DNA of 54,450 nucleotides from an uncultured bacterium (lineage in GTDB: Bacteria; Vulcanimicrobiota; CADAWZ01): NCBI GenBank assembly GCA_902790465.1, contig CADASF010000020.1, positions 1 to 54,450 on the forward strand. Direction: 5' to 3'. Each line of letters begins with the position of its first letter. Positions within the stretch are counted from its first letter, which is position 1. The notes below the pieces were generated by a model. It saw only the letters and a list, made by a program, of their open reading frames with translations. It did no database searches and had not been told where the DNA came from. A program made the translations under genes and the position numbers. Shown in pieces: positions 33,450 to 54,450 of this stretch.

Positions 33450-36080
33450 TTATTCCTTATTTTTTTTAGAATTTAATTGACGACTATATTTTAATTTTAA
33501 ATCTTTATAAGTTTCTTCATTTATTTCACCAAGTAAATAACGATCTTCTATAGATTCAAGCAATTTACTTATCTTCTTAATTTCTAAGTCGTCATTATTT
33601 ACTTTTTCTTCTACTTTTTCTTTTTTATCTTTTTTATCTTCAGTGTCCCTGAAAGTCTTATATACTTTTTGGCTTTCTTCATTTAACTTTTGAGGAACAG
33701 TTGAGAAATTATCTGCAACTGAATCAGACTCATGATGCATCATTTCTTTCAAAGTTATTACTTGATGTCCCCCACTATTCATTGCAAAAACAACTGCATT
33801 CTCAATGAGGTCTTGAAATTCCTTAACATCAGAAGAAAATGCTGGAAATGTACCAACAATAATTGAAGAACTGACCAATTCTGTTTGATATGTAAAACGA
33901 ATTTCTAATATTTTACCTTGAATCATAAAAGCCTTTGAATAAGCCTCATCAAAAGAAACACCATTCATAATAACAGAAAATTCACACTCAGAAAGAACAC
34001 AAATAAAGCAATCTGTTGGAAATACTCTATTAATCAATTCAATGATTTTGCTCTTCATTGTAATAACATATCTTTCACCAAAGTGACTTTCAAGATTTTG
34101 ATAATTATCTATAATAATTCTCAAAACAGAAAATTGAGTGTTATTCTTTTTACATTCTTCTGCTAATTCCAATATTTTTTTTCTACGGAACTCAATATTA
34201 TATAAACCTGTAACTGGATCTATATAAGGATTATTTACATTCTCATTATTTACAGATACTTGTTGGTAATTAATCTGCTCTGAATTCATTGGATTATTTT
34301 GATATCTTTGATCCTGATACTGTTGTGGATAAGGAGTTTGATTCAAACTCAAACGACCTGAATTCATTGGGTTATTTTGATATCCTTGATCCTGATACTG
34401 TTGTGGATAAGGAGTTTGATTCAAACTCAAACGACCTGAATTCATTGGATTATTTTGATACCCTTGGTCTTGATACTGTTGTGGATAAGGAGTTTGATTC
34501 AAACTCAAACGACCTGAATTCATTGGATTATTTTGATATCCTTGATCTTGATACTGTTGTGGATAAGGAGTTTGATTCAAACTCAAACGACCTGAATTCA
34601 TTGGATTATTTTGATATCCTTGGTCTTGATACTGTTGTGGATAAGGAGTTTGATTTCCCCCCAACTGTCCAAAATTCATAGAATTACCTTGATATCCGTC
34701 TCCCATATACTGCTGTTGATAAGAATTTTGTTGCAGACTGTTATCATAGCGATTCTGTGAAAAATCTAAAGATATAGCATTATTTGTTTTTGCATTATCA
34801 TTTTGATTGACACTCTTTTTAGGAATAGACAAATTAGAAAAATCTGAACTAACTTTCAAAACTTTTTGTTTTGGAGTTTCCTTCTTTGGAGTAAAAGAAT
34901 TCTGACGAGCAGATTGAACAAATTGATTTCTCTTAGGAGTTTCAACTTTAGGTTTTTCTACAATTTCAGGTTTCTTTTCAGTTTTCTTTTCTTCTACAGC
35001 ATCGTCAAGCCCTGGAAGATCATAATAATCCTCAAAATAACTTGTACCTGTATCATAAACTTTTGATTGTTTATCCGATTCTAAAATCATTTCAAAACGT
35101 CTTATCTCTGTTGTCAGAGTTAAAACATCTGCAGGATAGAAATAAAATTTATCCTTAAAATAATATACTATTGTTAAAAAATCTTTGTCATTAAATAAAA
35201 TTTCAAAATCTACATTTTGCTTTTTAAATACATCCATAGAATAAGTGGCAATAGTATCGCCCTTGAATCCCTTGACTTCAAAAATACGTTCGGACGAAGC
35301 TCCTACCTTTTCCAACACAACAAATCCTCTTGCAAGATAAAAAACAGAATCATTATTATCTAATGGAATATTAAATGTTTCAAGCTCTGGAGTTATTATC
35401 AATATACCTTTAGAACCATTTGAATCAAGTTTTATAAGGATTGTACCAGTTTTATACATCTCTGTATATGAAATAAAACAATCTGGAATAGATATTGGTT
35501 TGATTTGATTAGAAAGATTTCTCAAATCAAATCTTTTTATTTCAAGCTTCACAGAATTAGATGCATCTCTTGGTAAAATAATGAATGAATTTGCAAAATC
35601 TTTCGAAACATTCCAAAATACTTGACTTGAAAACTTATTTATAACAGTAAATTTATTTACAACAGTTTGTCTTTTAGAATCAAGTTCAAAAAGAATTAAC
35701 TCATATTCAAGTTGAGATTTATCATTTAAAGTCTGTTTAGCTCCAAATAATGAAAAGCCTTTCTTCAATTCATATTTTAAAAACATGCAACGAAGTCCAT
35801 CATCTGAGAACTTAACATATTTACCATTAGATTTAACCAAATTATCATAAGGAAAATCTGTTATTGGTTCCATTCTTGAATTACCAGATCTCACTATATA
35901 ACACAACTTATCAGAATGTATAACAACATTACCATTATTGAAAACATCAGCGGATGTTACATTAATATCATTAATATCGTTTTCCCATACAAGGATATCT
36001 TCTTTCATCAAAGACAATTTTGTATCTCTTCTGACCAAACAATATTTGGCATTATTGCTACCCCAAAAACAGTAACTCAT
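33450..36080 (-). CDS. Degenerate GGDEF protein with Gln/Asn/Tyr repeats and SHOCT-like C-terminus
   Basis: 876 residues, no membrane segment. Residues 1-340 are strand-rich and read like a WD/beta-propeller-type domain. A charged linker is followed by five near-identical 26-residue Gln/Asn/Pro/Tyr repeats (about 475-605). A GGDEF-like domain (about 625-790) begins with the canonical DPVTGLYN but has SECEF where GGDEF is expected, so cyclase activity is doubtful; it may bind nucleotide or c-di-GMP, or act as a scaffold. The last 45 residues (RYLLGEINEETYKDLK) match the SHOCT oligomerisation motif. GAGAGG precedes the ATG. Second gene of the eight-gene operon. Confidence 0.75.
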   Translation of the reverse strand: MSYCFWGSNNAKYCLVRRDTKLSLMKEDILVWENDINDINVTSADVFNNGNVVIHSDKLCYIVRSGNSRMEPITDFPYDNLVKSNGKYVKFSDDGLRCMFLKYELKKGFSLFGAKQTLNDKSQLEYELILFELDSKRQTVVNKFTVINKFSSQVFWNVSKDFANSFIILPRDASNSVKLEIKRFDLRNLSNQIKPISIPDCFISYTEMYKTGTILIKLDSNGSKGILIITPELETFNIPLDNNDSVFYLARGFVVLEKVGASSERIFEVKGFKGDTIATYSMDVFKKQNVDFEILFNDKDFLTIVYYFKDKFYFYPADVLTLTTEIRRFEMILESDKQSKVYDTGTSYFEDYYDLPGLDDAVEEKKTEKKPEIVEKPKVETPKRNQFVQSARQNSFTPKKETPKQKVLKVSSDFSNLSIPKKSVNQNDNAKTNNAISLDFSQNRYDNSLQQNSYQQQYMGDGYQGNSMNFGQLGGNQTPYPQQYQDQGYQNNPMNSGRLSLNQTPYPQQYQDQGYQNNPMNSGRLSLNQTPYPQQYQDQGYQNNPMNSGRLSLNQTPYPQQYQDQGYQNNPMNSGRLSLNQTPYPQQYQDQRYQNNPMNSEQINYQQVSVNNENVNNPYIDPVTGLYNIEFRRKKILELAEECKKNNTQFSVLRIIIDNYQNLESHFGERYVITMKSKIIELINRVFPTDCFICVLSECEFSVIMNGVSFDEAYSKAFMIQGKILEIRFTYQTELVSSSIIVGTFPAFSSDVKEFQDLIENAVVFAMNSGGHQVITLKEMMHHESDSVADNFSTVPQKLNEESQKVYKTFRDTEDKKDKKEKVEEKVNNDDLEIKKISKLLESIEDRYLLGEINEETYKDLKLKYSRQLNSKKNKE
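34275..34668 (-). repeat. Five 78-bp tandem repeats within the GGDEF-like gene
   Basis: Each 78-bp unit encodes 26 residues of the type NQTPYPQQYQDQGYQNNPMN plus a short GRLSL end. Units differ at few positions, including cct-tgatcc versus cct-tggtct. Upstream and downstream units are degenerate. Confidence 0.95.
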
Positions 36081-39028: not shown

Positions 39029-40519
39029 ATGATAATAAGGGAAACTGTAAAAGATTCCGAAACAATCGAATTTCTCGAAAAAATGAATTTTTTTGAGAAT
39101 ATGAATGAAGAAGAAAAAGAAAATCTTCTAAAAAACATAACTATAAGAGAATATGAAAAAGGCGAAACAGCAAATTCAGATGGAGATACTATTGATTTTG
39201 CAGGTCTTGTAATAAAGGGTGAATTTATACATGAATTCTACGAAAGAATAAGCCTTGTTTATGAAGAGGGAGAAATATTTGGATCATTTGGAATCTTTAC
39301 AAAGCAAATTCCTAAATCCTTAGTCAAAACATTTACAGGCGGAAAAATAGTATGCTTTAATTACGATCTATTCAAAAAGCCTGAAATATTAGGCAAAGCT
39401 CAAATGTTTAACCTTTTCATGAAATTCCAGCCATATCTTACTGATTTAAAGACAGAGCAGAAAGGATTTTTCAATTACATGGATGTCTTGATCATTCAAG
39501 ACGGTGGTTGTGCTCCTGGAAAAAATTCAGTAATAGCATTTCTGACAGAATATCTTGAAAAAGCAGGAAGAAAAGTATATATAGCTTCAGAAGGTTACCG
39601 TTCTGTTGTAAATGGAATGAAAAACGATTTCAAATGCCTTGTAGATGACAGAAAAATATATCATGAACTCGATTCAATCCCTGGTGTTGTAAATGCAAGA
39701 AGATTGAGAGATGCAAGAGGAGCAGATTTCCGCTCAGAAAGATTCCCTGAATTTAATGAAATAGAACTACAACAACAGGCAGCCAAAAATATTATTTCAA
39801 GAAATGTAAAAACACTTATAGGGGTAGGTGGAAATGGAACATTTGGAGGACTTTCACATCTCATAAGACATCTTCCAGAATCAATACAAGTTTTCTACAT
39901 TCCAGTAACAATAGACAGTGATGTACTTGGTTCAGATACAATAGGACAATATACAGGAGTAGAAGTCGGTGCTGAAAAAGTCAGATGTTATTTGGCAGAT
40001 GCTGCAACACATCATCGCTGTTATATAATCGAAATGATGGGAGCTATGGGAGGATATCATGCCCTCAATTCTGCAGTAGGAGCAGGAGCTCATTTAGCTG
40101 TACTTCCTGGACATACTTACAATTTACATGCAATAAATAAAGCACTTGAAAAAATGGACAATGCAGTAATAGTTGTTGCTGAAGGCTACAAAAAACAGGA
40201 AAGAAAAGCCTCACACTACGAAGGCAATGCTGCAACATATTTCAGAGATGAACTTATTCAAGCAGGATTAAAAACAAAAATGAAAATATTCTGTGAACCA
40301 TTTTCAAGAGATATTAGAGGAGCTACACCAAATAATATGGACATAGCTCTTGCACAGGCCATGGCAAAGAGAGTTGCTGAGATGTCATCTGAGGGAAAAT
40401 CTCGTTTAATGCCTTCCATAAAAGGAAGTGAACATGGAGCGGATATTCCATTTTCAGAAATACAGACAAACAATTCAGTTGATGCAAATCTTGTAAAATT
40501 GGCAAACAGATTGTATTAA
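39029..40519 (+). CDS. Fusion of a cyclic-nucleotide-binding fold and 6-phosphofructokinase
   Basis: 496 residues. The N-terminal part (about 15-140) has the beta-roll pattern of CAP-type effector domains (FFENMNEEEKENLLKNITIREYEKGE, then GLVIKGEF, then EEGEIFGSFGIF). The phosphate-cassette Arg is not evident (KQIPKSLV), so cAMP binding is not assured. From about 150 it is a PfkA-type phosphofructokinase: IQDGGCAPGKNSV (about 156-167), GVGGNGTF (N269 where the family has Asp), PVTIDSDV with the catalytic D296 and D298, and EMMGAMGGYHAL. Gly270 at the ATP/PPi selectivity position favours ATP. GGAGG lies 8 nt before the ATG. The fusion could place glycolytic flux under ligand control. Confidence 0.85.
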   Translation: MIIRETVKDSETIEFLEKMNFFENMNEEEKENLLKNITIREYEKGETANSDGDTIDFAGLVIKGEFIHEFYERISLVYEEGEIFGSFGIFTKQIPKSLVKTFTGGKIVCFNYDLFKKPEILGKAQMFNLFMKFQPYLTDLKTEQKGFFNYMDVLIIQDGGCAPGKNSVIAFLTEYLEKAGRKVYIASEGYRSVVNGMKNDFKCLVDDRKIYHELDSIPGVVNARRLRDARGADFRSERFPEFNEIELQQQAAKNIISRNVKTLIGVGGNGTFGGLSHLIRHLPESIQVFYIPVTIDSDVLGSDTIGQYTGVEVGAEKVRCYLADAATHHRCYIIEMMGAMGGYHALNSAVGAGAHLAVLPGHTYNLHAINKALEKMDNAVIVVAEGYKKQERKASHYEGNAATYFRDELIQAGLKTKMKIFCEPFSRDIRGATPNNMDIALAQAMAKRVAEMSSEGKSRLMPSIKGSEHGADIPFSEIQTNNSVDANLVKLANRLY

Positions 40520-40576
40520 TACAGATTGTATTTCTGAAAATGGATGGGAAAGAAGACTGGAGAGGGAGTGAAAAAA

Positions 40577-41419
40577 ATGGAATTGACAAAAATGTCAGAT
40601 GGAATCTATTTAATAGGGGTTTATGGTTCCTTTAAAGTGGGACTTTGGCTACTTGAATCAAATGGAGAATGTGCCTTATTTGAAATGCCTGAAGCAAATA
40701 AAGAGGGAGAATCTCCTGCCAAAACAGCTCGAAAAATAATAGACCAAAAAGGGTGGAAATGCAAATATCTATTTTTATCCCATTCTCATATTGATCACTC
40801 TGCTACAATAAGAGAATTTAAAGAAGTTTTTCCAGAAGCAAGTTTTCCTGCTCATTATTCCCTTCCCATGTATATGAGAGTTTCTGAACATTTTTGGTCA
40901 AAAAGTAAGAAAGAAGATAAGCCTGTTGAATTTGAAGAGGCTTGGAAAAATATAAAGGGAAATGATCCTCTTTGGTATCTGTCTTTTTTCGATTCAATAA
41001 CAGTTGATGACATAACATGTTATGAGCTTGGGTGTGAGAAAATATATATGATATATGGACCAAAACACTGTTTGGGTGATGTACATTATATATACAGAGG
41101 TTGTTGGTTCTCAGGTGATTGGTGGATATATGAGGGCGACCCTTCAGATGACAGAATCGCTTCCAGTAAGGCAATAATATCTCTAAACAGACTTGAAGAT
41201 TTTTCGATAGTCAAAGATTACAGAATCCACACCGTTTTTCCGTCCCATGCAAACAACATACTCAGAAACATAGATTTTCATGACATAATAACAAGAACAA
41301 GAAAATACCACGAAGAAATTGAAGAAAAAAGAAAAGACGGATATGACTGGACAAAATTTGGATTAAAAGAATTATATTACTGGGTATTTACCGTCATGGA
41401 AAAACAGAAATCTAATTAA
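40577..41419 (+). CDS. Metallo-beta-lactamase-fold hydrolase
   Basis: 280 residues from the ATG at 40577, which has GGGAG 8 nt upstream; an in-frame ATG at 40544 is weaker. The metal site is SHSHIDHS (His69, His71, Asp73, His74), followed by later ligands in GPKHCLGD, FSGDWW and FPSHAN. The HxHxDH set with a late Asp and His fits glyoxalase II/arylsulfatase-like hydrolases. The substrate is unknown. Its place after the dehydrogenase and PFK genes suggests a thioester or metabolite-repair role, which is inference. Confidence 0.8.
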   Translation: MELTKMSDGIYLIGVYGSFKVGLWLLESNGECALFEMPEANKEGESPAKTARKIIDQKGWKCKYLFLSHSHIDHSATIREFKEVFPEASFPAHYSLPMYMRVSEHFWSKSKKEDKPVEFEEAWKNIKGNDPLWYLSFFDSITVDDITCYELGCEKIYMIYGPKHCLGDVHYIYRGCWFSGDWWIYEGDPSDDRIASSKAIISLNRLEDFSIVKDYRIHTVFPSHANNILRNIDFHDIITRTRKYHEEIEEKRKDGYDWTKFGLKELYYWVFTVMEKQKSN

Positions 41420-41460
41420 AAAAATTGGGCTGTGAAAAATTTCACAGCCCAATTTTTTTA
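41418..41460. terminator. Strong bidirectional terminator
   Basis: AAATTGGGCTGTGAAA and TTTCACAGCCCAATTT arms with A and T tails between convergent operons. Confidence 0.95.
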
Positions 41461-41461
41461 C

Positions 41462-42556
41462 TCAATAATTATAAAATAACACTTCAGGGATTGTTCGTTC
41501 TACAGTTTCATAAATAACATAATCTGGTTTTTCTTTATCCAAAATATCGATCAAAAATGAATGTCGATGAACAAACAAAATATTTTTAAATTTAGTTGCC
41601 ATTATAGGCATAATCGCCCCTCTAAAAGAATCACCAATAAAAACAACTTTCTTATCAGATTCAGCAACAGGATTTGTAAATCTTGTAACCTCATCTGTGA
41701 TATCCTCTTTTTGGATAGGCATATTTTCCCATAAATTGACAGATATTGTCGGAGGATCTCCCAAAATTTGTTTTGGATTTATAAATCCTGCCATCTGTGC
41801 CAATCCATTATTTGCATTTAAAGTTTCTCTGCAAGAATATTTTGAAATATCTGGAAGTAAAATTCCCATTTGATTCAATAAAACAGTCGTTTCAGCATAA
41901 GCACCTGGGGCACTCCAATGTGTGTCTAATTTATCATAGACATGGTATTTAGATTTCATTGATAAAATTTCATCAAATGGAAAAATTACTTCAATTCCAT
42001 ATTTTATTTTTAAATATCGTGAAAATTGATAAGATCTCGGTGTGTAATCAGTTCTGATTATTCCGCTTGGCATATATTCTGGATAAATATTTTCTTTGTT
42101 TGGACATAGAAGATATATAAACTCTGCTCCTCTATCTTCTGTTTTCTTTTTTAGATCATTTATTTTTGAAGCTATTTTATCCATTTCATCATAAGAAAAT
42201 TGGTTTATTCTCTTATAATCTCCCATAGAATCACCATCATTTTCATCACTGTAAAAAAGCCAACCATCTTTTCCAAAAATTACCTTAGGAGAATTGACAA
42301 AACCAAATATTCTATACTGCATAACAGAGTCAAAATTTATTAACTCTGTCCTAAATGGAAAATGATCATCATAATATTTAGAAAAATTTTCAGGAAATTG
42401 CTTTAGAGTAATTATATTCAAAACAGGAAAATCATATAATTTTCTATTGTCGATTTTATTAAATGAGGAATCATCTGATACAAAGAACCAAAAAACTGAA
42501 GGAAGGTATAAAAGAGCTAAAAAACAATATATAAGAATCTTATCAGACTTTTTCAT
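41462..42556 (-). CDS. AlgX/AlgJ-like SGNH acetyltransferase, paralog 4
   Basis: 364 residues. An N-terminal transmembrane helix (about 6-26) is followed by an SGNH-like domain with GKDGWLFYSD (95-104), PNKENIYPEYMP (152-163), the Asp-x-His pair DTHW (D211, H213) and GDSF with Ser310. These correspond to the catalytic triad of AlgJ/AlgX, which acetylates exopolysaccharide in the periplasm. Last of four paralogs; its ATG overlaps the previous stop by 4 nt (ATGA). It alone keeps Gly before Asp-Ser (GDS); the other three have Arg. Confidence 0.85.
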   Translation of the reverse strand: MKKSDKILIYCFLALLYLPSVFWFFVSDDSSFNKIDNRKLYDFPVLNIITLKQFPENFSKYYDDHFPFRTELINFDSVMQYRIFGFVNSPKVIFGKDGWLFYSDENDGDSMGDYKRINQFSYDEMDKIASKINDLKKKTEDRGAEFIYLLCPNKENIYPEYMPSGIIRTDYTPRSYQFSRYLKIKYGIEVIFPFDEILSMKSKYHVYDKLDTHWSAPGAYAETTVLLNQMGILLPDISKYSCRETLNANNGLAQMAGFINPKQILGDPPTISVNLWENMPIQKEDITDEVTRFTNPVAESDKKVVFIGDSFRGAIMPIMATKFKNILFVHRHSFLIDILDKEKPDYVIYETVERTIPEVLFYNY

Positions 42557-43659
42557 TTCAAAAAATCATCCTCAAGAATTTTATGCAAATGGCGTTCTGC
42601 CGTTTCAAAAATAAATAAATCTGCATGCTCTTTTTCAATGCTATCATATTTAAAATATTTTCTAACAGCGACAAAAGTATCTTCAGCATTAACGGCAAGT
42701 GGCAACATCATTGCCTCACCAAAAGAATCTCTTGACATAACTATTTTTTTAAAAGGCAAATTCTTTTTATCACAATGATATCTATTTTCTTCTACACCTG
42801 CAGGACGAGGAACTGCATCAGAAAAATCAGAGACTTTAAAAGCATTAGACTCTTTAAAAAGAAATGGAGCTCCAGATAAATTTGCCAAATCAAATGAATC
42901 TTTTTCAAGAGGTGTTATCTTAAATTCATCTACATTTGGAGTTTTTACACCTAATGAAGAAAAAAGTTCTCTTGTGCCTATATATCCTCCAACATAAGTC
43001 CAATGTGTGTCTATTTCATAATAAATTGGATATTTATCTTTTACTTTTTGCAACTCTTCAAAAGGAAATACAACATTAATATTGGTGTTATATCTCAAAT
43101 ATTTTACAAGTTGATGAGTTCTTGAAATATTATTATCTCTCAAAATAGAAGGCATATTTTCTTCTAAACAAATATTCTCTTTATTTGGACAGATTATAAA
43201 AACAAATTTAGCACCATGATTTTTTGCATATTGTTCCAAAATAGAAAGTCTTTCTGCGATAATTTTTAACTCACTTGGCGAAAACTCATTTATCCTCTTA
43301 TAGTCAGCAATAGGATCGCCATCAGTCTTATCACTATAAAATAGCCATCCCTTTTTTCCAAAAAAGAGTTTAGATGATTCAAGACTTCCAGTCAATTTAT
43401 ATTGGAGAACAGAATAAAAAGAAATCAATTTACTTCTAAAAGGCAAATTGTCTGAATACCAATACTCAAATTCTTTTGGAAATTCCTTAACAGTTAGACC
43501 ATTTAAAACAGGAAATTTTTCAAGATTTCTATTATCTATATTTTCTGAATTTAAACTCGGTTCAAGAAAAAACCACAAAATCGAGGGACAAATAATAAAA
43601 AAAACAAAAGAATATATTAAATATTTATCTAATCTATTAATTTTTTTCTTCAAAGTCAT
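42553..43659 (-). CDS. AlgX/AlgJ-like SGNH acetyltransferase, paralog 3
   Basis: 368 residues from ATG 43659, or 371 from a TTG at 43668; neither has a good ribosome site, and the gene start lies inside the end of paralog 2 (overlap of 23-32 nt), so translation is probably coupled. An N-terminal transmembrane helix (about 13-32) is followed by the family motifs KKGWLFYSD, CPNKENICLEENMP, DTHW, and SRDSFGEAM holding the nucleophile Ser. Triad intact by inspection. Likely transfers acetyl groups supplied by the MBOAT protein upstream to a surface polymer. Confidence 0.85.
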   Translation of the reverse strand: MTLKKKINRLDKYLIYSFVFFIICPSILWFFLEPSLNSENIDNRNLEKFPVLNGLTVKEFPKEFEYWYSDNLPFRSKLISFYSVLQYKLTGSLESSKLFFGKKGWLFYSDKTDGDPIADYKRINEFSPSELKIIAERLSILEQYAKNHGAKFVFIICPNKENICLEENMPSILRDNNISRTHQLVKYLRYNTNINVVFPFEELQKVKDKYPIYYEIDTHWTYVGGYIGTRELFSSLGVKTPNVDEFKITPLEKDSFDLANLSGAPFLFKESNAFKVSDFSDAVPRPAGVEENRYHCDKKNLPFKKIVMSRDSFGEAMMLPLAVNAEDTFVAVRKYFKYDSIEKEHADLFIFETAERHLHKILEDDFLK

Positions 43660-44764
43660 AATTGTCAATCAATGTTGAGAAATACCTCTCAACAACTTCA
43701 AATACAAATACATTAGGTCTTTCTACATCTATCATTTCCTTTTGGAAACAATAGTAAATAACATAAACAGAATCTTGATAATAAGTTGAAACAACAGGTA
43801 TCATATATCCTGCAAAAGAATCTCTTATCATCATAATCTTTTCTTTTTTAGGTGCATCTTTACAATATTTTCTAATGCCACCTTCAAGAATTGCGGGTCT
43901 TTCTTCTACATTAAAATTATTATATCCTGATATCCTGATTTCATTTGTCTCATGCAAAAGATCTTTTACACCAGACATATTTGAAAGATCATATCCTGAA
44001 CGCCCCTCTTCACCTGTTTTTACATAATATTCTTTTTGTAATTCACTTATTTCAGGCAATTTCAATCCAAACTTTTCAAGTAATAATTTAGAAGCAATAT
44101 AACCGCCTAAATCATTCCAATGTGTGTCATTTTTATAATATACAAAATTATCTTTTTTAGCTTTAACCAATTCAGCAGTTGGATCGATTATTTTTATATC
44201 TGTATTTGCCTTTAAATAATTTATCAACTGTTTTGTTCTAGGTGTATAATTTGTTCTTATTATACAGTCAGGCATATATTCTGTATATATATTTTCCTTA
44301 TTTGGACCAATCAAAAATACAAAATCACAATTTCTTTTTTTGCAATATTTCTGAATGTCGGTTAGAGTTTTGCAAATTTTTTCAAGTTGTTCAATCGAAA
44401 ATTGATTCACTCTCTTATAATCCCCTACAGGATCGCCATCTATTTCGCTTTTATAGAATAACCAACCATTTTTTGCAAAAAGTATTTTAGCAGATTCAAC
44501 AGTACCAGTAAGTCTGTATAAAATATGTGAATAAAGAGTTATGCCATAAGCTCTAAAAGGCAAATTATCTGCATAATATTCCTCAAAACCTGCTGGAAAT
44601 TGTTTCATGGTAATAGAATTCAAAACAGGCATCTTTTTCAACTGTCTGTTGTCCATATTTTCGAATGGAAGATTTGGACTTATGAACCACCAAACAACAG
44701 AAGGCAGTATCAATAGAGCAAAAAATAAATATAATAAAATTTTATCTCTAAGTTTCATTTTCAT
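43637..44764 (-). CDS. AlgX/AlgJ-like SGNH acetyltransferase, paralog 2
   Basis: 375 residues with an N-terminal transmembrane helix (about 9-28). Motifs: AKNGWLFYK, GPNKENIYTEYMP, NDTHWN (D213, H215), MIRDSFAG (Ser316). The start overlaps the previous stop as ATGA. Same architecture as the other three; the membrane anchor places the domain in the periplasm. Confidence 0.85.
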   Translation of the reverse strand: MKMKLRDKILLYLFFALLILPSVVWWFISPNLPFENMDNRQLKKMPVLNSITMKQFPAGFEEYYADNLPFRAYGITLYSHILYRLTGTVESAKILFAKNGWLFYKSEIDGDPVGDYKRVNQFSIEQLEKICKTLTDIQKYCKKRNCDFVFLIGPNKENIYTEYMPDCIIRTNYTPRTKQLINYLKANTDIKIIDPTAELVKAKKDNFVYYKNDTHWNDLGGYIASKLLLEKFGLKLPEISELQKEYYVKTGEEGRSGYDLSNMSGVKDLLHETNEIRISGYNNFNVEERPAILEGGIRKYCKDAPKKEKIMMIRDSFAGYMIPVVSTYYQDSVYVIYYCFQKEMIDVERPNVFVFEVVERYFSTLIDNYDFEEKN

Positions 44765-45888
44765 TTCTTATCAAACTCATCTTTCGCAACACGAGGAAGA
44801 TACCGCTCGGCAACTTCATAAATAAAAATATCTGGTTTTTCGACATCTATAAAATTTTTGTCAAAATAGTAATACAACATAACAGACGAATTTCTAAATC
44901 CCACGGCTAATATAGGAGCCATTGATTCCCCAAAAGAATCTCTTATCATCAACAATTTGCCTGTTTTTACACCTTCACAACTATATCTTGAAATTTCATT
45001 TGCAGAAGCCATGCCTCCTAAAATAGGTGAACTTTCATATTTTGAAACTTCAAATTTAAATGGCTCTCTTAAAAAATCTTGCATTCCTACTAATTTTGCA
45101 AGATCATATCCCTTCCCTATTTCAGCTGTTTTTCCATTTGATTTATCATCATGAATAACGACAAAATCTTTATTAGGCAAAGGTCTATCTAATTTTTCTA
45201 AAAGAAAAGAAGATGCACAAAATCCTCCGTAAGAATTCCAATGTGTATCATATTTGTAATATGTAACATACTTGTCTTTTGCTTTTTTTAATAGATTGTC
45301 AGGGTAAATAGGATTTATATCTGTATTATTTTTTAAATACCAAATAAGTTGTTCAGTTCTCGACATTCCATGTGTTCTTTTTATGTAGTCAGGCATATAT
45401 TCTGAATATATATTTTCCTTATTTGGAGCAATGAAAAATAAAAATTTGCAATTTCTTTCTTCACAATATTTTTTTAGAGCTACCAAACTATTTGCAGAAG
45501 CAATCAATTCCTCATTCGAAAATGAATCAATCTTTTTATATGTCGGAATGGGATCGCCATCATTTACATTTTTATAAAACATCCAACCATCTTTTGCAAA
45601 AAGAACCCTTTCAGATTCAACTTCTTTAAAAATATTGTACTGCAAAAAAGAGTAAAATTTTATAAAATAATTTCTAAATGGCAGATGATCAGTATAAAAA
45701 CCGTCAAAATCTTTAGGAAATTGCTTAACTGTTATTCCATTTAATTTTGGAAAAGATCTCAAAACTCGGTTTTCAATATTCCTCTTATCTGCATTTGGTT
45801 CAAGGAAAAACCAAAGAACATTTGGTAAAATCAAAAAAGCAAAAAAGACGAAAAAAACAATTCTATCGCTAAATTTAATCTTATTCAT
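44761..45888 (-). CDS. AlgX/AlgJ-like SGNH acetyltransferase, paralog 1
   Basis: 375 residues with a transmembrane helix at about 9-28. Motifs: AKDGWMFYK, APNKENIYSEYMP, YDTHWN (D214, H216), MIRDSFGESM (Ser318). It begins 5 nt after the MBOAT stop, so the two are one transcript. First and therefore possibly best expressed of the four paralogs. Confidence 0.85.
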   Translation of the reverse strand: MNKIKFSDRIVFFVFFAFLILPNVLWFFLEPNADKRNIENRVLRSFPKLNGITVKQFPKDFDGFYTDHLPFRNYFIKFYSFLQYNIFKEVESERVLFAKDGWMFYKNVNDGDPIPTYKKIDSFSNEELIASANSLVALKKYCEERNCKFLFFIAPNKENIYSEYMPDYIKRTHGMSRTEQLIWYLKNNTDINPIYPDNLLKKAKDKYVTYYKYDTHWNSYGGFCASSFLLEKLDRPLPNKDFVVIHDDKSNGKTAEIGKGYDLAKLVGMQDFLREPFKFEVSKYESSPILGGMASANEISRYSCEGVKTGKLLMIRDSFGESMAPILAVGFRNSSVMLYYYFDKNFIDVEKPDIFIYEVAERYLPRVAKDEFDKK

Positions 45889-45893
45889 AAATT

Positions 45894-47309
45894 TTAAAAT
45901 CTAAAATAGATAAATGGATTATATGTTCCGCTTATGAGCTTTAATATACACCATGCCAAAATCAATGTATAAAAACTGACTACAGAAAAATCAACAACCC
46001 AAGAAGGCAATTTTTTAACGCAAAACTCTTCAAATTTATTCTTTATTGAATGGAAGAGACCACAGAACAAAAATGCGATTACAAATGCAATTATGACATG
46101 AATATTTATTACTTCGGCAAAACTCCATATTACATTTGAATTTCCAATAAACATAGCGTAAAAATAATTCATGGCATGTGGCAAATTATCAGATCTGAAT
46201 ATCACAAAACCAAGAACAACAACTGCCCACATATACATGACATTCAAAAACTTAAATTTATTCTTTTCAATAATGCTTCTAAACCAAAATCTTTCAAAGA
46301 CTATAAAAAAGCCATGCCACATACCCCAAACGATAAATGTGATACCTGCACCATGCCAAGTTCCTGTCAAGACAAAGACGATAAACAAATTTATTAAAGT
46401 CATTGCATCGCCATTTCTATTTCCTCCAAGAGGAATATAGACATAATTTTTAAACCAACTTGAAAGTGAAATATGCCATCTTCTCCAATGTTCACCTATT
46501 GATTGTGAAATATAAGGAAGGTTGAAGTTTTCAAGAAAATCAAAACCAAACATCTTTCCCAAACCTATTGCCATGTCTGAATAACCAGAAAAGTCATAAT
46601 AGATTTGAAGTGTATAACATAGAATGCCAGCCCAAGCAAGTGGTGAAGATATTTCACAAGGATTACAAGAAAAAATCTTATCAGAAGCAACAGCAAGAGT
46701 ATTTGATATTATAACTTTTTTTCCAAGTCCCAAAACAAATCTCTTTATACCTACAACAAATTTTTCAACACTTTCTTCTCTCTTTGTAAGTTGTTCTTCT
46801 ATGTCTTGATATTTGACGATAGGACCTGCAATCAATTGTGGGAAAAGTGATATATAAAGTGCCAAATTTAAAATATTTTTCTGTACACTTATTTTTTTTC
46901 TATATAAATCAATTACATAAGAAAGAGACTGGAATGTATAAAATGAAATACCTATTGGCAGTGCTACATGTTTAAAAATAAACTGCTGTTTGCCTGCAAT
47001 CATATTTAAAGATTCAATCAAAAAATTGAAATATTTAAAATATCCCAATAGACAGATATTTCCTATAATACATAATGTAATAGCAATTTTTCTTTTTTTA
47101 TCCTCAGATTTATCGATCCAAAGTCCCATAAAATAATTGAAAACAATGGAAGCTAAAAGAACAAGGATATAGCTTGGCTCTCCCCAAAAATAGAAAAATA
47201 AACTTGCACACAATAGAAAATTATTTCTATATCTCTTATCAAAAAGATAGTAAAAAATTAAAACTGTGGGTAAAAATATCCACAGAAAAACCATCGAACT
47301 AAAAACCAA
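45894..47309 (-). CDS. algI: MBOAT acyltransferase, AlgI type
   Basis: 471 residues, the usual AlgI length, with about ten transmembrane helices. It passes acetyl groups across the inner membrane to a periplasmic SGNH partner. Signature residues: EHWRRWHISLSSWFKNYVYIPLGGNR and the active His in LTGTWHGAGITFIVWG. The conserved family start MVFSSMVFLW is encoded from a TTG at 47309 with GAGG 9 nt upstream; the next ATG (47294) would cut off five conserved residues. First gene of a five-gene operon. Alginate biosynthesis genes are absent, so the acetylated polymer is some other glycan. Confidence 0.93.
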   Translation of the reverse strand: MVFSSMVFLWIFLPTVLIFYYLFDKRYRNNFLLCASLFFYFWGEPSYILVLLASIVFNYFMGLWIDKSEDKKRKIAITLCIIGNICLLGYFKYFNFLIESLNMIAGKQQFIFKHVALPIGISFYTFQSLSYVIDLYRKKISVQKNILNLALYISLFPQLIAGPIVKYQDIEEQLTKREESVEKFVVGIKRFVLGLGKKVIISNTLAVASDKIFSCNPCEISSPLAWAGILCYTLQIYYDFSGYSDMAIGLGKMFGFDFLENFNLPYISQSIGEHWRRWHISLSSWFKNYVYIPLGGNRNGDAMTLINLFIVFVLTGTWHGAGITFIVWGMWHGFFIVFERFWFRSIIEKNKFKFLNVMYMWAVVVLGFVIFRSDNLPHAMNYFYAMFIGNSNVIWSFAEVINIHVIIAFVIAFLFCGLFHSIKNKFEEFCVKKLPSWVVDFSVVSFYTLILAWCILKLISGTYNPFIYFRF

Positions 47310-47480: not shown

Positions 47481-49454
47481 ATGGACTTTATATTACCTTT
47501 ACTATTTTTGATATTTTCAAGCGGTATTTATTCAATAATTTTCAAAAAAAACATAAGTGAAACAATACCATTTACAATAATTATATCATCTCTAATACTA
47601 TACATATTTGGAATATTAAACATATTGCCAATAGGATTTTATATTTTATCTCTATCTTGTTTAATATTTCCAATATATATGATAATAAAACAAAAAGAGA
47701 TACTAAATATAAAACCTCTAATTTTAAATAATGGATTATATATATTTATTGTTTTATATACATTAATATATTTTCTAAATCTAAACAGAGGATTTTCTTC
47801 CTATGATGAGATTTCACATTGGGGACCTATGGTCAAAGAAATTCTGAGAACAGGAAAATTATATTGTTGTGAAAGTTCAAATCTTTTAGCCCACAGAGAC
47901 TATCCACCTATTTTTCAAATATGGGAATCTTTTTGGTGCTTTTTATGTTTAGGATTTAAAGAACCATGCCTATACAAAGCACTTCAAACAGCTTGTCTAT
48001 CATTCTTTTTGCCAATATTTACAAATAGTTCAAAAAGAAATATAATCTATTTCTTACTATGTCCAATCTGTTTAATTTCAATATGCAACACAATTCCATT
48101 AGAAGATGGAAATTTTTGTGATACAATATATTTAGATGCTCCGATAGCTTTATTAAGTGCATACTGTGTATATCTTTTGATAAAAGACAAAATAAATAAT
48201 GACGAATTGGATTTATTTTCTAAAATACAGATAACATCTTCACTATCTTTTTTAGTAATAACAAAACAAATAGGAATTTTCTTTTATTTAATATCAATAT
48301 GTATATTTATAATTTCCAAATTATTTAAATCTAAAAACAGAATAAAAGCAATATCAATTTTATTAATAACAATAATTCTTCCTACAGGATTCTTGTTTTC
48401 GTGGAAATTATTTTCTAAAAACTCAACATCTCAATTTAATGTTCAAAAAATACAATTAAACGAAATACCCACAATCATAAAAGGGCAAGATAAAAATTTT
48501 TCAACAAAACATCAAATTTATCTAAATTTTAAAAAGGCAATAGACAATCAAGATTTAGCACTAAAAACAGTAATACCAAATTTTAACTTTTTAGTAATAT
48601 CAATAATATTATTGATATCAATATTTATATATACGAATATTGAACAACAAAATGTTAAACTATCTAAAATTCTTATTATATTATCTTTTTTAATACTCTT
48701 ATTTCAAAAAATAACTTATTTTACAGGGTTAAACATAATATTTGGGTTATTTTTATTATTAATATCATCAAAAGAAGAAAAATTAAAATCAAATATTACT
48801 TATTCAATCTTATACTTAGGCGGTTACGCATATTATATTGCAATAATGATTTTATATTTTTTCTGTTTTGTACCTTATGAAAGTTTAAGACTTGCCTCTT
48901 TTATAAGATATATGAACACATATTTATTATTTTTACTGGCAATAACAGCTATGATATTTTTTCAAAAAATCACATATTCAAAAAAGACTGAATTAAATTT
49001 AGCAATATTTTTGGTTTTTATTGCGATATTTAATATTGTTAAAGGTGAAATTAATATAAGAATTCCTTATAAAAACACATCTATAACAAACAGATATTTA
49101 GAGGATTCAAAAATAATAGAATCAAATACAAAAGAAGACGACAAAATATATATAATTTCTCAAAAAAATGACGGTTCATCTTTTTTCACATTATCATATT
49201 TGACATCTCCGAGAAAATATAATATGGATAATTTCAGCATAGGCAAATCAGAAGGTGATATATTTACAAAAGATATATCAATAACAGAATTGTCAAAATT
49301 TTTAATAGAAGAAAATTATAAATATTTATATATACAAAAAATTGATGAAAATTTTATCACAAATTATGCGACTATGTTTAAAGATAAAAATCCAATAGAA
49401 AAGCATATATATAAAATAGAAAAACAAGAAAATAAAAATGTTATGTTTAAATAA
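47481..49454 (+). CDS. Polytopic membrane protein, probable GT-C-fold glycosyltransferase
   Basis: 657 residues with about twelve to thirteen hydrophobic helices up to about residue 515 and a soluble C-terminal tail of about 140 residues. After the third or fourth helix the first large outside loop carries SYDEISHWGPM (Asp109, Glu110, His113), the type of acidic motif that marks GT-C enzymes using lipid-linked sugars. A second loop has HRDYPPIFQIWE, again common in this class. The exact family is not recognised. It overlaps the next gene's upstream region and is divergent from the MBOAT operon, so it may act on the same surface polymer. Confidence 0.65.
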   Translation: MDFILPLLFLIFSSGIYSIIFKKNISETIPFTIIISSLILYIFGILNILPIGFYILSLSCLIFPIYMIIKQKEILNIKPLILNNGLYIFIVLYTLIYFLNLNRGFSSYDEISHWGPMVKEILRTGKLYCCESSNLLAHRDYPPIFQIWESFWCFLCLGFKEPCLYKALQTACLSFFLPIFTNSSKRNIIYFLLCPICLISICNTIPLEDGNFCDTIYLDAPIALLSAYCVYLLIKDKINNDELDLFSKIQITSSLSFLVITKQIGIFFYLISICIFIISKLFKSKNRIKAISILLITIILPTGFLFSWKLFSKNSTSQFNVQKIQLNEIPTIIKGQDKNFSTKHQIYLNFKKAIDNQDLALKTVIPNFNFLVISIILLISIFIYTNIEQQNVKLSKILIILSFLILLFQKITYFTGLNIIFGLFLLLISSKEEKLKSNITYSILYLGGYAYYIAIMILYFFCFVPYESLRLASFIRYMNTYLLFLLAITAMIFFQKITYSKKTELNLAIFLVFIAIFNIVKGEINIRIPYKNTSITNRYLEDSKIIESNTKEDDKIYIISQKNDGSSFFTLSYLTSPRKYNMDNFSIGKSEGDIFTKDISITELSKFLIEENYKYLYIQKIDENFITNYATMFKDKNPIEKHIYKIEKQENKNVMFK

Positions 49455-50205: not shown

Positions 50206-51852
50206 CTACACTGCCCCTAATATTGACGAACAGAATTGAATGAACCAAACTGAAGGCATAAATATAATCTGTGAAATAATTGTACCTATCACTGTACCCA
50301 AAGCAAGAAATACAGCCATTGAACAGACATCAGAGAATGGTCTCTTTCCTTCTATTGCATTATCTGTAATAACAGCAATAGTTGGATCGACAAGCAAACT
50401 CAAAAGAATTGTTGCAACACCATTTATGACAGAGGACAAAAGCGTAACACCTCTTGCATCAGGATATGCAAAACTTGCAAATGTAGCAGCCAAAACTCCG
50501 ACAGTGTGGAACGAAATAACAATTATATTTGCAATCAAAAAATTTCGAGGAATGGATTTCATATCAGAGAGCTTAACTCCCATAAATGAAGGCATTCTGA
50601 AACATTGAATAGCTTTTAACCAAATAGACGGCTTTATGCAAGTCATTAAAATTAGTTTATCCAACGAGCCATATTTAGTCATTCCTCTAATTGCTTTTAC
50701 ATAGATTTCCACAAATGTTGGAAGTAAAATAAATCCAAGCAAAGCTCCCAAAGTTGAGCCACCAATAAGCCACCTAAATTGACCTTCCAAAACACCTGCT
50801 GGTAAATTATTTTTTACAGCAGAATCAACCATTGTTCCAATAAATGGAGCGAAAATCTGTTGTGAAAGTCTTGTAAGTAAGAAGAAGAAATTATATATTG
50901 CAATAGCAGTTGCTACACTTCTTGTCTTTACTGCTGATATTCTTGATGAATAAGTTGTAGATGATTTCAACATTACAAGTGCATTGAAAATCGCCAAAAT
51001 TATATAATTTCCTGTCATTTCACTGTTGCCCATTGCTACTGCAGTGCTACTTATTAGATTTGCACCTGGCATGAAGAAAAACTGGGCGATAACGGCTCCG
51101 AGAACATTTCCAAGCATTAAATGGAGTGAAACTGCATATATCTGCTGTTCTTTTGTCTCACCTTTTACAATATTATCTGTAATTAAAGATGCTTTCGGAT
51201 CTACAATTACACTAAAGAAAATGGCAGCAAGAGCATTTACAAGACCTGACAATAAAACGGCTGTCCTTTTTACTTCTGGATGAACTCCACTTGCATATAA
51301 AGCACACAGTGCACCAACAGTCCATATTGCTGTTGCAAACATGTTAAATATCAGAAAGTTTGCAGGAGCTCCTTCGAGTTTAAAAAGTTTTGCCCCCATA
51401 AATGAAGGGGCTTTGAAGCATTTTATAGCTTTGACCCAATTTGCAGGCTTTGTTATAAAAAGTATAATAACTTTTACCATTGATTTATATTTGTCCAATG
51501 CTTCAATGGCTTTTTGATAAAATTCCACAAAAGAAGGCAACAAAAACCAACCAACAGCTGTTCCAAAAAGATTTCCATAAATCAAAAATCTTATCTGTTG
51601 TTCAAGACGAAAAAATTCTTGAGTCTCCTCCGCCCTATCTATATAAATTCCCAAATATGGAAGATAAAATAGATTTGCAAATCGAGTAACCAAGAAAAAT
51701 ATATTGTAAACAGCAAATGCCATTGCAACTTTTTTTGTATTGACAGCTGCAATTCTTGTTGCTATAGTCGTACAACTCAAAAGGCTTATCAGTGCCGATA
51801 CACCGAAAAGCAAAACAAGTCTAAAATCACTAAAAAATTCCAAATATTCCAT
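50206..51852 (-). CDS. Tandem-duplicated Amj-type lipid II flippase
   Basis: 548 residues from ATG 51852 (AAGGACGAG 3 nt upstream; an in-frame start at 51891 is unsupported). Two homologous halves (about 1-270 and 271-548) each match the Amj/YdaH (DUF2837) pattern. Half one has TRIAAVNTKKVAMAFAVYNI, KPANWVKAIKCF and VDPKASLITDN; half two has SRISAVKTRSVATAIAIYNF, KPSIWLKAIQCF and VDPTIAVITDN. Amj of Bacillus subtilis, about 270 residues, flips the peptidoglycan precursor lipid II in place of MurJ. Here one chain would carry both halves of a presumed dimer, or two specialised halves. About twelve hydrophobic helices in total. Transcribed alone. Confidence 0.8.
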   Translation of the reverse strand: MEYLEFFSDFRLVLLFGVSALISLLSCTTIATRIAAVNTKKVAMAFAVYNIFFLVTRFANLFYLPYLGIYIDRAEETQEFFRLEQQIRFLIYGNLFGTAVGWFLLPSFVEFYQKAIEALDKYKSMVKVIILFITKPANWVKAIKCFKAPSFMGAKLFKLEGAPANFLIFNMFATAIWTVGALCALYASGVHPEVKRTAVLLSGLVNALAAIFFSVIVDPKASLITDNIVKGETKEQQIYAVSLHLMLGNVLGAVIAQFFFMPGANLISSTAVAMGNSEMTGNYIILAIFNALVMLKSSTTYSSRISAVKTRSVATAIAIYNFFFLLTRLSQQIFAPFIGTMVDSAVKNNLPAGVLEGQFRWLIGGSTLGALLGFILLPTFVEIYVKAIRGMTKYGSLDKLILMTCIKPSIWLKAIQCFRMPSFMGVKLSDMKSIPRNFLIANIIVISFHTVGVLAATFASFAYPDARGVTLLSSVINGVATILLSLLVDPTIAVITDNAIEGKRPFSDVCSMAVFLALGTVIGTIISQIIFMPSVWFIQFCSSILGAV

Positions 51853-51964
51853 AGTCTCGTCCTTACACACTATAAAAATAACTTTAAGCAAAGTTATTAA
51901 TTAACTCGTTGTGATAGTTATTAATATTTTAAAATCTACCCAAACAGCCTCTGTTTAGAAGAGA

Positions 51965-52629: not shown

Positions 52630-53361
52630 TTAAAGATTGATCCACAAAGCGGGGCGAGCAAGAATATAATCACAAATAACAACAGCGAAATGGTGGACAT
52701 CACCATCAAAATCGACAAGATAGACAAAACAAAGCTCACGAGAACGAAGCCACCAACAACTACAACCAACAGCTTTTTTAACATCTCCATCATATACCTT
52801 AGCACCATTTTTTACAGCATATTCAGTAGCTTTACATTGTCTCGCAGTATTATTAGCAAAATACTTTTCTGCCTCTTTCTTACTAAGCAAAAACACATTA
52901 TCAGTTATGTCAACATCTGAAAGATTAGAAAAAACTATACATTTCTTCTCATCTTCACTAAAGGCTTTGTTATAAAAATCACCATTCAACCACTTGCGAA
53001 TTTCACTATTTTTCCAAAGATTAGAATTAGGACCAAAACGCTTTGCATCAAGACCTGTAGGCATTATACCCTTCCTAAACCCAACATTTGAATAACTGTC
53101 AAAACACTTACAATCAAGACCATAACGAGAAATAACAAGCATCTTGTTATTTTCTATTGACAAAACTTGCCATTCAATAGGCTGATTCTGACTATTTGAA
53201 GTCTGCGGATAATTGCCAAATTTTACATAATCACCTACTTTTGCAGATTTAAAAGGATTAAAATATGATTGCGAACTTAAACGCTTTGAATCTTTAAATA
53301 TATCTTTTCCCCCCAATTTTATTATCTCAGCAACAGCTTCTCTTATGGTTCCCTTTACCAT
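52630..53361 (-). CDS. DUF6273 protein, paralog 2
   Basis: 243 residues. After a short helical N-terminus (1-35) comes a complete DUF6273 domain: VGDYVKFGNYPQ, PIEWQVLSIENNKMLVISRYGLD, NSEIRKWLNGDFYNKAFSEDEK, NVFLLSKKEAEKYFANNTARQCKATEYAVKNGA, and a C-terminal WW-RS...ARPALWINL segment. The domain resembles the formylglycine/C-type-lectin-like class of binding domains, but the ligand is unknown. No signal peptide. Compared with paralog 1 it has an extra 10-15 residues near residue 95 and a very different C-terminal 40 residues. It lies 115 nt after paralog 1, with a palindrome between. Confidence 0.8.
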   Translation of the reverse strand: MVKGTIREAVAEIIKLGGKDIFKDSKRLSSQSYFNPFKSAKVGDYVKFGNYPQTSNSQNQPIEWQVLSIENNKMLVISRYGLDCKCFDSYSNVGFRKGIMPTGLDAKRFGPNSNLWKNSEIRKWLNGDFYNKAFSEDEKKCIVFSNLSDVDITDNVFLLSKKEAEKYFANNTARQCKATEYAVKNGAKVYDGDVKKAVGCSCWWLRSRELCFVYLVDFDGDVHHFAVVICDYILARPALWINL

Positions 53362-53476: not shown

Positions 53477-54450
53477 TTAAAGATTGATCCACAAAGCAGG
53501 CCGAGCCACAACATAACGAATGTAAACAGAATAGTAACTACTGAGCTCACCACCAACATCAAAAAAATAGACATAATGAATACTATGAGGACGAAGAGAA
53601 CGAATCCACCAAACACTATAACCATTATTAGCTACTAAAGCACCATTTTTTACTGCATAATCAGTAGCCTTACATTGTCTCGCAGTATCATTAGCAAAAT
53701 ATTTTTTTGCCTCTTCTTTACTAAGCAAAAACACATTATCACCTGTGCCAACATCTGAAAGATTAGAAAGATTTATAAATTTCTTATCATCTTCACTAAA
53801 GGCTTTATTATAAAAATCACCATTCAACCACTTGCGAATCTCACTATTTTTCCAAACATTAAAAATACTGTCAAAACGCTTTGCATCAAGACCATAACGA
53901 GAAATAACAAGCATTTTACCATTTTCTATTGACAATACCTGCCATTCAATAGGCTGAACTTGACCATTTGATGTCTGCGGATAACTGCCAAATTTTATAT
54001 AATCACCAACTTTTGCATTTTTAAAAGGATTTCCCTGTTGCTGTGTTTGTTGCGTTGCCTTCTTTGTTATTGTTGATTGTTGAGTTTGTGTCTGTTTGGT
54101 TATTTGCTGTTTTGCCTGTTGTTGCTGTTGTGCTTCTTGCTGTCCTTTTGGTTTTCCACAGTTGCCACAAAATTTAGTCGTATTTACAGTACCACAAACG
54201 CAAGTCCAATCTAAAGATTTTGGATCAGGTTTAGCCGTTCCACAATTACCACAGAAATTGGTTGTATTTACACAACCACAAGAACAAGTCCATTCATTTT
54301 GACTTGAAGAAGTATTTTGTTTTTGTACTTTTTGAGTTTGTGGTTGAGTTATCGGCTTTGGTGTATAATTCCAACCCAAAGACAAAGCAAAAGATTCAAT
54401 AATAAAATTAATCCAATCCTGTGAAAGCCCCTTATTTTCAAGCTGTATCT
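53477..54450 (-). CDS. DUF6273 protein with two zinc ribbons, paralog 1 (N-terminus outside window)
   Basis: The frame is open to the right edge (about 324 codons here). The visible N-terminal end is DWINFIIESFALSLGW, which looks like the end of a helical domain, so the internal TTG at 54385 is not the start. Two Cys4 zinc ribbons follow (WTCSCGCVNTTNFCGNCG and WTCVCGTVNTTKFCGNCG), then a Gln-rich linker of about 50 residues, and a DUF6273 domain ending ARPALWINL. The two ribbons before a binding domain suggest a multi-domain receptor or effector; function unknown. Confidence 0.8.
   Translation of the reverse strand, partial: IQLENKGLSQDWINFIIESFALSLGWNYTPKPITQPQTQKVQKQNTSSSQNEWTCSCGCVNTTNFCGNCGTAKPDPKSLDWTCVCGTVNTTKFCGNCGKPKGQQEAQQQQQAKQQITKQTQTQQSTITKKATQQTQQQGNPFKNAKVGDYIKFGSYPQTSNGQVQPIEWQVLSIENGKMLVISRYGLDAKRFDSIFNVWKNSEIRKWLNGDFYNKAFSEDDKKFINLSNLSDVGTGDNVFLLSKEEAKKYFANDTARQCKATDYAVKNGALVANNGYSVWWIRSLRPHSIHYVYFFDVGGELSSYYSVYIRYVVARPALWINL

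Follow-up and report, generated by a model that had tools for sequence, protein, structure and literature searches.

Why should a single MBOAT acyltransferase gene be followed by four genes for SGNH partner proteins? The question is raised by an operon at positions 41,462–47,309 of a 54,450-nucleotide stretch of DNA from an uncultured bacterium (assembly GCA_902790465.1, contig CADASF010000020.1, positions 1 to 54,450 of the forward strand), which is referred to as the window throughout. The four SGNH proteins, predicted to be membrane-anchored and of the AlgX/AlgJ type, are named S1 to S4 in gene order. For alginate, the need of some polysaccharide acetylation systems for more than a single SGNH protein has been posed as an open question (PMC4148444). 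The locus analyzed here is an unusual, lineage-specific expansion of the known MBOAT-SGNH acyltransferase machine and not a new machine. We consider it somewhat probable that the operon O-acylates an extracytoplasmic polysaccharide, with the one MBOAT protein as donor and the four SGNH transferases acting in parallel; S1 and S2 would form the core, and S3 and S4 would be diverging.

One operon with one MBOAT gene and four SGNH genes

All five genes lie on the reverse strand. The MBOAT gene (AlgI/PatA type, Pfam PF03062; 45894–47309) encodes 471 amino acids from a TTG start codon, and its homologue in G002, a genome of the same family, has ATG at the identical residue. A gap of 5 bases separates it from S1 (44761–45888), a membrane-anchored AlgX/AlgJ/PatB1-like SGNH protein of 375 residues with an RDS serine motif and the catalytic residues D214, H216 and S318, identified by Pfam ALGX, the tree and an AlphaFold model. 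S1 overlaps by 4 bases with S2 (43637–44764), which is of the same type, also has 375 residues and RDS, and was identified by Pfam ALGX and the tree. S3 (42553–43668; Pfam DHHW and ALGX) likewise carries RDS and consists of 371 residues if translated from the TTG at 43668 or 368 residues from the ATG at 43659, and it overlaps S2 by 32 or 23 bases, depending on the start. The overlap between S3 and S4 is again 4 bases, and S4 (41462–42556; Pfam ALGX, tree and AlphaFold) encodes 364 residues with a GDS motif. A strong, bidirectional intrinsic terminator with a 20-pair stem (41417–41460, strand-neutral), recognized in the sequence, stands between S4 and a convergent gene for a protein of metallo-beta-lactamase fold (40544–41419). 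The MBOAT gene and S1–S4 form one transcription unit, which is ended by this terminator 3' of S4. The sequence-only reading of this DNA had described one MBOAT gene with four tandem, anchored AlgX/AlgJ-like paralogs, and the coordinates and Pfam cut-offs bear out that description.

The genome containing the window (3.05 Mb in 121 contigs, 98% complete) has one MBOAT gene and four ALGX genes, all of them in this operon, and therefore no second donor of this type is on hand. An Omp85 protein is also encoded in the genome, which makes an outer membrane most likely.

The MBOAT protein scored 112.1 bits against Pfam MBOAT, for which the cut-off is 27, and is 69% identical to its G002 homologue. It contains a WHGAG motif, in which His319 is the WHG histidine, and a C-terminal FIYFRF that corresponds to the FxYxxF acyl-shuttle motif. 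Among the compared loci, WHG was present in all 76 MBOATs and FxYxxF near the C-terminus in 63 of the 76. In PatA, the tyrosine of FxYxxF is auto-acetylated and then serves as the donor for PatB (PMC12148441). The score against the NCBIfam DltB equivalog TIGR04091 was 147.8 bits, below the cut-off of 375, so the protein is not assigned to DltB (D-alanyl transfer).

Each of the four SGNH proteins passed the Pfam ALGX cut-off of 26.5 (40.7, 59.5, 33.1 and 45.1 bits for S1 to S4). For Pfam DHHW, with a cut-off of 25, S3 lay above the threshold (34.9) and S1 (17.7), S2 (24.0) and S4 (21.9) below it. Pairwise identity among the copies is 37–47%. Residues K157, D214, H216, D317 and S318 (S1 numbering, used for all residues below) are invariant across the 71 homologues to which the copies were compared, and all are present in S1–S4. 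The Asp-x-His pair is DTHW in all four, and the serine motif is RDS in the first three and GDS in the last, exactly as the sequence-only reading had stated. The Asp-x-His pair precedes the serine motif, which is the circularly permuted triad order known from AlgJ, AlgX and PatB1 (PMC9487903).

AlphaFold models of S1 (predicted local distance difference test score, pLDDT, 90; predicted template modelling score, pTM, 0.87) and S4 (pLDDT 94, pTM 0.89) consist of a single N-terminal helix followed by an SGNH-like domain, without a further binding module, and in both models the helix is the predicted membrane anchor. The only significant PDB fold matches of the two models were PatB1, a DHHW protein, AlgJ and AlgX. 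The best matches for S1 were 4nzk, 5v8d (PatB1) and 4o8v (AlgJ), and the best match for S4 was 5v8d (E 1.7e-12). E values of the two models against the AlgJ/AlgX fold (4o8v, 4knc) ranged from 2e-11 to 1e-6, which assigns these two copies to that fold. A profile of the 71 homologues also found PatB1 (5v8d) as the first match (E 1.4e-33) and AlgJ as the second.

Rarity and history of the array

We scanned 84,980 species genomes with an eight-sequence profile and obtained 80 loci, which represent the nearest relatives only; arrays may occur among more distant AlgX-type proteins. The norm assumed at the start, an MBOAT accompanied by one SGNH partner or two, agrees with this sample, as a single SGNH gene stands beside the MBOAT gene in about 70 of the 80 loci. 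Two SGNH genes were found in five alphaproteobacterial loci (L052, L057, L062, L064 and L096), three in one Chloroflexi bin (L069), and four only in L020, which is the same-family genome G002, where they stand behind two MBOATs. In the same phylum (149 genomes), more than one match occurred only in the window's genome and in G002. No described array of this kind was found in the open-access literature. The serine motif was RDS in 38 and GDS in 35 of 95 homologues; since both are common, the RDS/GDS difference is ordinary variation, neither a useful clue nor a mark of specificity.

The phylogeny that the sequence-only reading had proposed as a check connected the first two copies to G002 and left S3 and S4 without an ortholog there. 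A tree built from 95 proteins places all eight copies, four from the window and four from G002, in one clade (support 100/97) within a mostly Bacillota group. The MBOAT tree agrees, with the MBOATs of the window and G002 grouping together (Shimodaira-Hasegawa-like approximate likelihood ratio test, SH-aLRT, 100). The first SGNH copy of G002 is orthologous to S1, with support of 99/91 in the 95-protein tree and 99/98 in a smaller tree. S2 groups with the second to fourth G002 copies (100/90 in the 95-protein tree), a placement that the smaller tree leaves unresolved. S3 and S4 have no G002 partner in the trees, and S4 is the deepest branch of the array clade.

Simple histories of the array were evaluated using the approximately unbiased (AU) test. 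A single clade of the four G002 copies was rejected (p 0.006) and a single clade of the four window copies was borderline (p 0.049); a separate expansion of all four within each genome is accordingly rejected for G002 and borderline for the window. Position-by-position orthology with G002 was rejected for the third (p 0.018) and fourth (p 0.001) copies. Taken with the tree, these results indicate that some duplications occurred before the genus split and others after it, and the presence of four copies in both genomes may be a coincidence. An assembly artefact is ruled out by the identity of 37–47% and by the four copies in G002, which is an independent genome; the earlier judgement that the copies are too diverged for an assembly duplication was thus correct.

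In G002, two tandem MBOAT genes precede the four SGNH genes (L010, 8032–9024 and 6520–7935; L011, 1–483), and the assembly breaks within a 20-residue stretch that is identical in both MBOATs. Searches first suggested that the operon is absent from the congener G001, which was rejected, as two contigs of that genome, C112 and C130, break off at the locus or within it. C112 carries the conserved neighbour and, at the break, the final 24 codons of an S3-like gene, with no S4 in between, and this tail agrees with S3 at 18 of 24 residues and at 80% of 87 bases. S3 is therefore the last gene of the G001 array; S4 was either lost or relocated in G001, or it was acquired in the genome of the window.

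What the four copies may do

In the preferred reading, the MBOAT protein would take acetyl from cytoplasmic acetyl-CoA and load it, via the WHG histidine, onto the tyrosine of the C-terminal FIYFRF at the outer face of the inner membrane. This acyl-tyrosine shuttle chemistry, established for PatA/PatB (PMC12148441), is proposed here because the motifs are conserved. Each SGNH protein, tethered by its N-terminal helix, would dock on the one MBOAT, and the serine of its Ser-His-Asp triad would accept the acetyl group and then pass it to a sugar hydroxyl. The copies would most likely share one donor as its interchangeable partners, with a core pair of S1 and S2 and with S3 and S4 moving towards other acceptor positions or polymers. 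Tandem duplications within this bacterial family built the array, which continues to turn over.

Judged by their conservation, S1–S4 are not four equals, as S1 and S2 are conserved across genera and S3 and S4 lack a G002 ortholog. S1 and S2 retain nearly all residues that are conserved in at least 85% of the homologues. S3 is changed at the near-invariant positions Y161C, P166M and N218T, and S4 at N218S and D262G. The four copies had been called intact, which is true of their catalytic residues; S3 and S4 have lost a few near-invariant positions.

The copies also differ by region. Among S1–S4, identity is 49–50% in the anchor and juxtamembrane part (residues 6–90) and 37% in the catalytic remainder. 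This N-terminal excess was matched by no circular column shift when compared with the Lachnospiraceae outgroup and by 1.4% of the shifts when compared with all outgroups, and it was not found in two control clades of single-SGNH loci. The stretch from the histidine to the serine (residues 236–310) is the most diverged among S1–S4, at 11–25% identity, and is also the most variable stretch in the whole family. An N-terminal excess would be expected of copies that are all constrained to fit one MBOAT and whose catalytic halves are changing. The contrast between the halves fits a shared dock with diverging acceptor halves. The sequence-only reading had suggested different acceptor positions, different polymers or dosage; as far as sequences can tell, the contrast speaks for a change in what the copies acetylate rather than for dosage alone.

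Several points weigh against parallel action on different acceptors. The residue losses in S3 and S4 would fit relaxed constraint as well as new function. The boundary at residues 6–90 was set after a first look at the regional identities, so the N-terminal excess is support and not proof, and the four G002 copies show no such excess. Next to the operon, no locus for polysaccharide synthesis was seen. Acetyl is most likely the cargo of the MBOAT protein, although its sequence is compatible with other acyl groups too. In G002, the operon adjoins the ftsQ-ftsA-ftsZ end of the division/cell wall cluster (gene names inferred from the translations), a weak hint at the cell wall as the acceptor.

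The array could also be explained by dosage and drift: tandem duplication would have raised the amount of enzyme, the extra copies would be redundant and decaying or lost, and the number four would have no special meaning. The residues altered in S3 and S4 are conserved in 85–99% of the homologues, the congener G001 has no S4 after S3, and the extra copies of G002 are a set of their own, all of which would agree with such a course. However, the four open frames keep the triad at an identity of 37–47%, a divergence far beyond that of recent dosage copies, and conservation is higher in the anchor half than in the catalytic one. Moreover, G002 also keeps four open copies, the last three of which come from other duplications. 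We regard this explanation as rather unlikely.

An obligatory chain appears less plausible still and is considered improbable. The MBOAT would then pass its cargo to one SGNH protein, which would hand it on to others that modify the polymer, as proposed for AlgI-AlgJ-AlgX (PMC4148444), so that the copies would act in sequence on a single polymer. Two SGNH proteins with distinct roles are needed in P. aeruginosa (PMC4148444), and S1, which stands first, is conserved and has its ortholog in G002, would be in line with a dedicated first link. The four window copies are nevertheless of similar length, with an anchor, one SGNH domain, the same triad and no carbohydrate-binding module (CBM), unlike AlgJ compared with AlgX; moreover, S3 and S4 come and go among genomes, which is awkward for obligatory links. 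It is very improbable that the MBOAT serves only some copies and that the others use another donor or became acetyl-removing esterases. SGNH proteins do include esterases, one of which (Ape1) is found in peptidoglycan O-acetylation operons (PMC12148441), and the GDS of S4 is as in canonical esterases. Yet both the circular permutation of the triad and the membrane anchor are traits of AlgJ/PatB1-type transferases (PMC9487903), and partners of MBOATs have GDS as commonly as RDS.

We prefer one donor with four parallel transferases, and a more specific form of this proposal is put forward tentatively. One MBOAT may dock at least four interchangeable SGNH transferases, each acting on its own hydroxyl or polymer; tandem duplication and loss may retune this set from genus to genus, in a manner comparable to plant RWA-TBL.

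Surroundings and known systems

Several other features were observed in the window. A 657-residue multi-membrane protein (47481–49454, forward strand) is encoded divergently from the MBOAT gene and has no Pfam or NCBIfam match; it is conserved in the congener G001, one contig of which stops at this boundary, and two relatives of it are encoded at other places in G002. A 561-residue open reading frame (50206–51891, reverse strand) contains two Amj stretches (PF10997, alternate lipid II flippase), which represent a head-to-tail fused domain duplication. Two adjacent paralogous reading frames (52630–53361 and 53477–54385, both reverse strand) have the common domain VGDYxKFGxYPQTSN...ARPALWINL, and the second has two zinc-ribbon-like CxC motifs. 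On the other side of the operon, a phosphofructokinase-family protein (39029–40519, forward strand) has about 150 extra N-terminal residues ahead of PF00365, which by eye resemble a domain of the cyclic-nucleotide-binding type. A GGDEF-type domain protein (33450–36080, reverse strand) carries about five near-identical copies of the 26-residue repeat NPMNSGRLSLNQTPYPQQYQDQGYQN in mid-protein.

Of the known systems, PatA1/PatB1, the secondary cell wall polysaccharide O-acetyltransferase of Bacillus cereus (DHHW family), likewise combines an MBOAT with a circularly permuted SGNH protein. PatB1 (5v8d) is the closest solved relative by sequence and also the top fold match for S4. In that system, PatA1 is paired with PatB1, and the motifs are KDS at the serine and TDHHW (PMC9487903), in contrast to R/GDS and DTHW here. 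The Omp85 protein of the window's genome points to a different envelope, and the polymer is probably different. The alginate system of Pseudomonas, AlgI/AlgJ/AlgX, shares the Pfam ALGX family and more than one SGNH protein per MBOAT. Its two SGNH proteins are of unlike layout, with a CBM in AlgX, and are accompanied by AlgF; AlgX binds and acetylates alginate, whereas AlgJ does not bind it (PMC4148444). The four proteins in the window are of one layout and have no CBM.

PatA/PatB of Gram-negative peptidoglycan O-acetylation is similar in that a separate SGNH transferase accompanies an MBOAT whose C-terminus carries FxYxxF (PMC12148441), but its operon contains one PatB and the esterase Ape1, compared with four SGNH proteins and no recognized esterase here. 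In plants, a few RWA donors are thought to feed many single-anchor TBL transferases of different regiospecificity (PMC6110886). RWA belongs to another membrane protein family, and the plant system operates in the Golgi from dispersed genes, so the analogy is functional only. The two-SGNH loci of Alphaproteobacteria and the three-SGNH Chloroflexi bin also have extra SGNH genes beside an MBOAT gene, but these stem from separate duplications elsewhere in the tree.

If dosage is all that the four copies differ in, the locus would simply illustrate how genes are amplified and turned over. With four paralogs of the same layout and related natural arrays, swap experiments could separate donor docking from acceptor choice, and the boundary between the conserved anchor half and the divergent catalytic half marks where to cut for such swaps.

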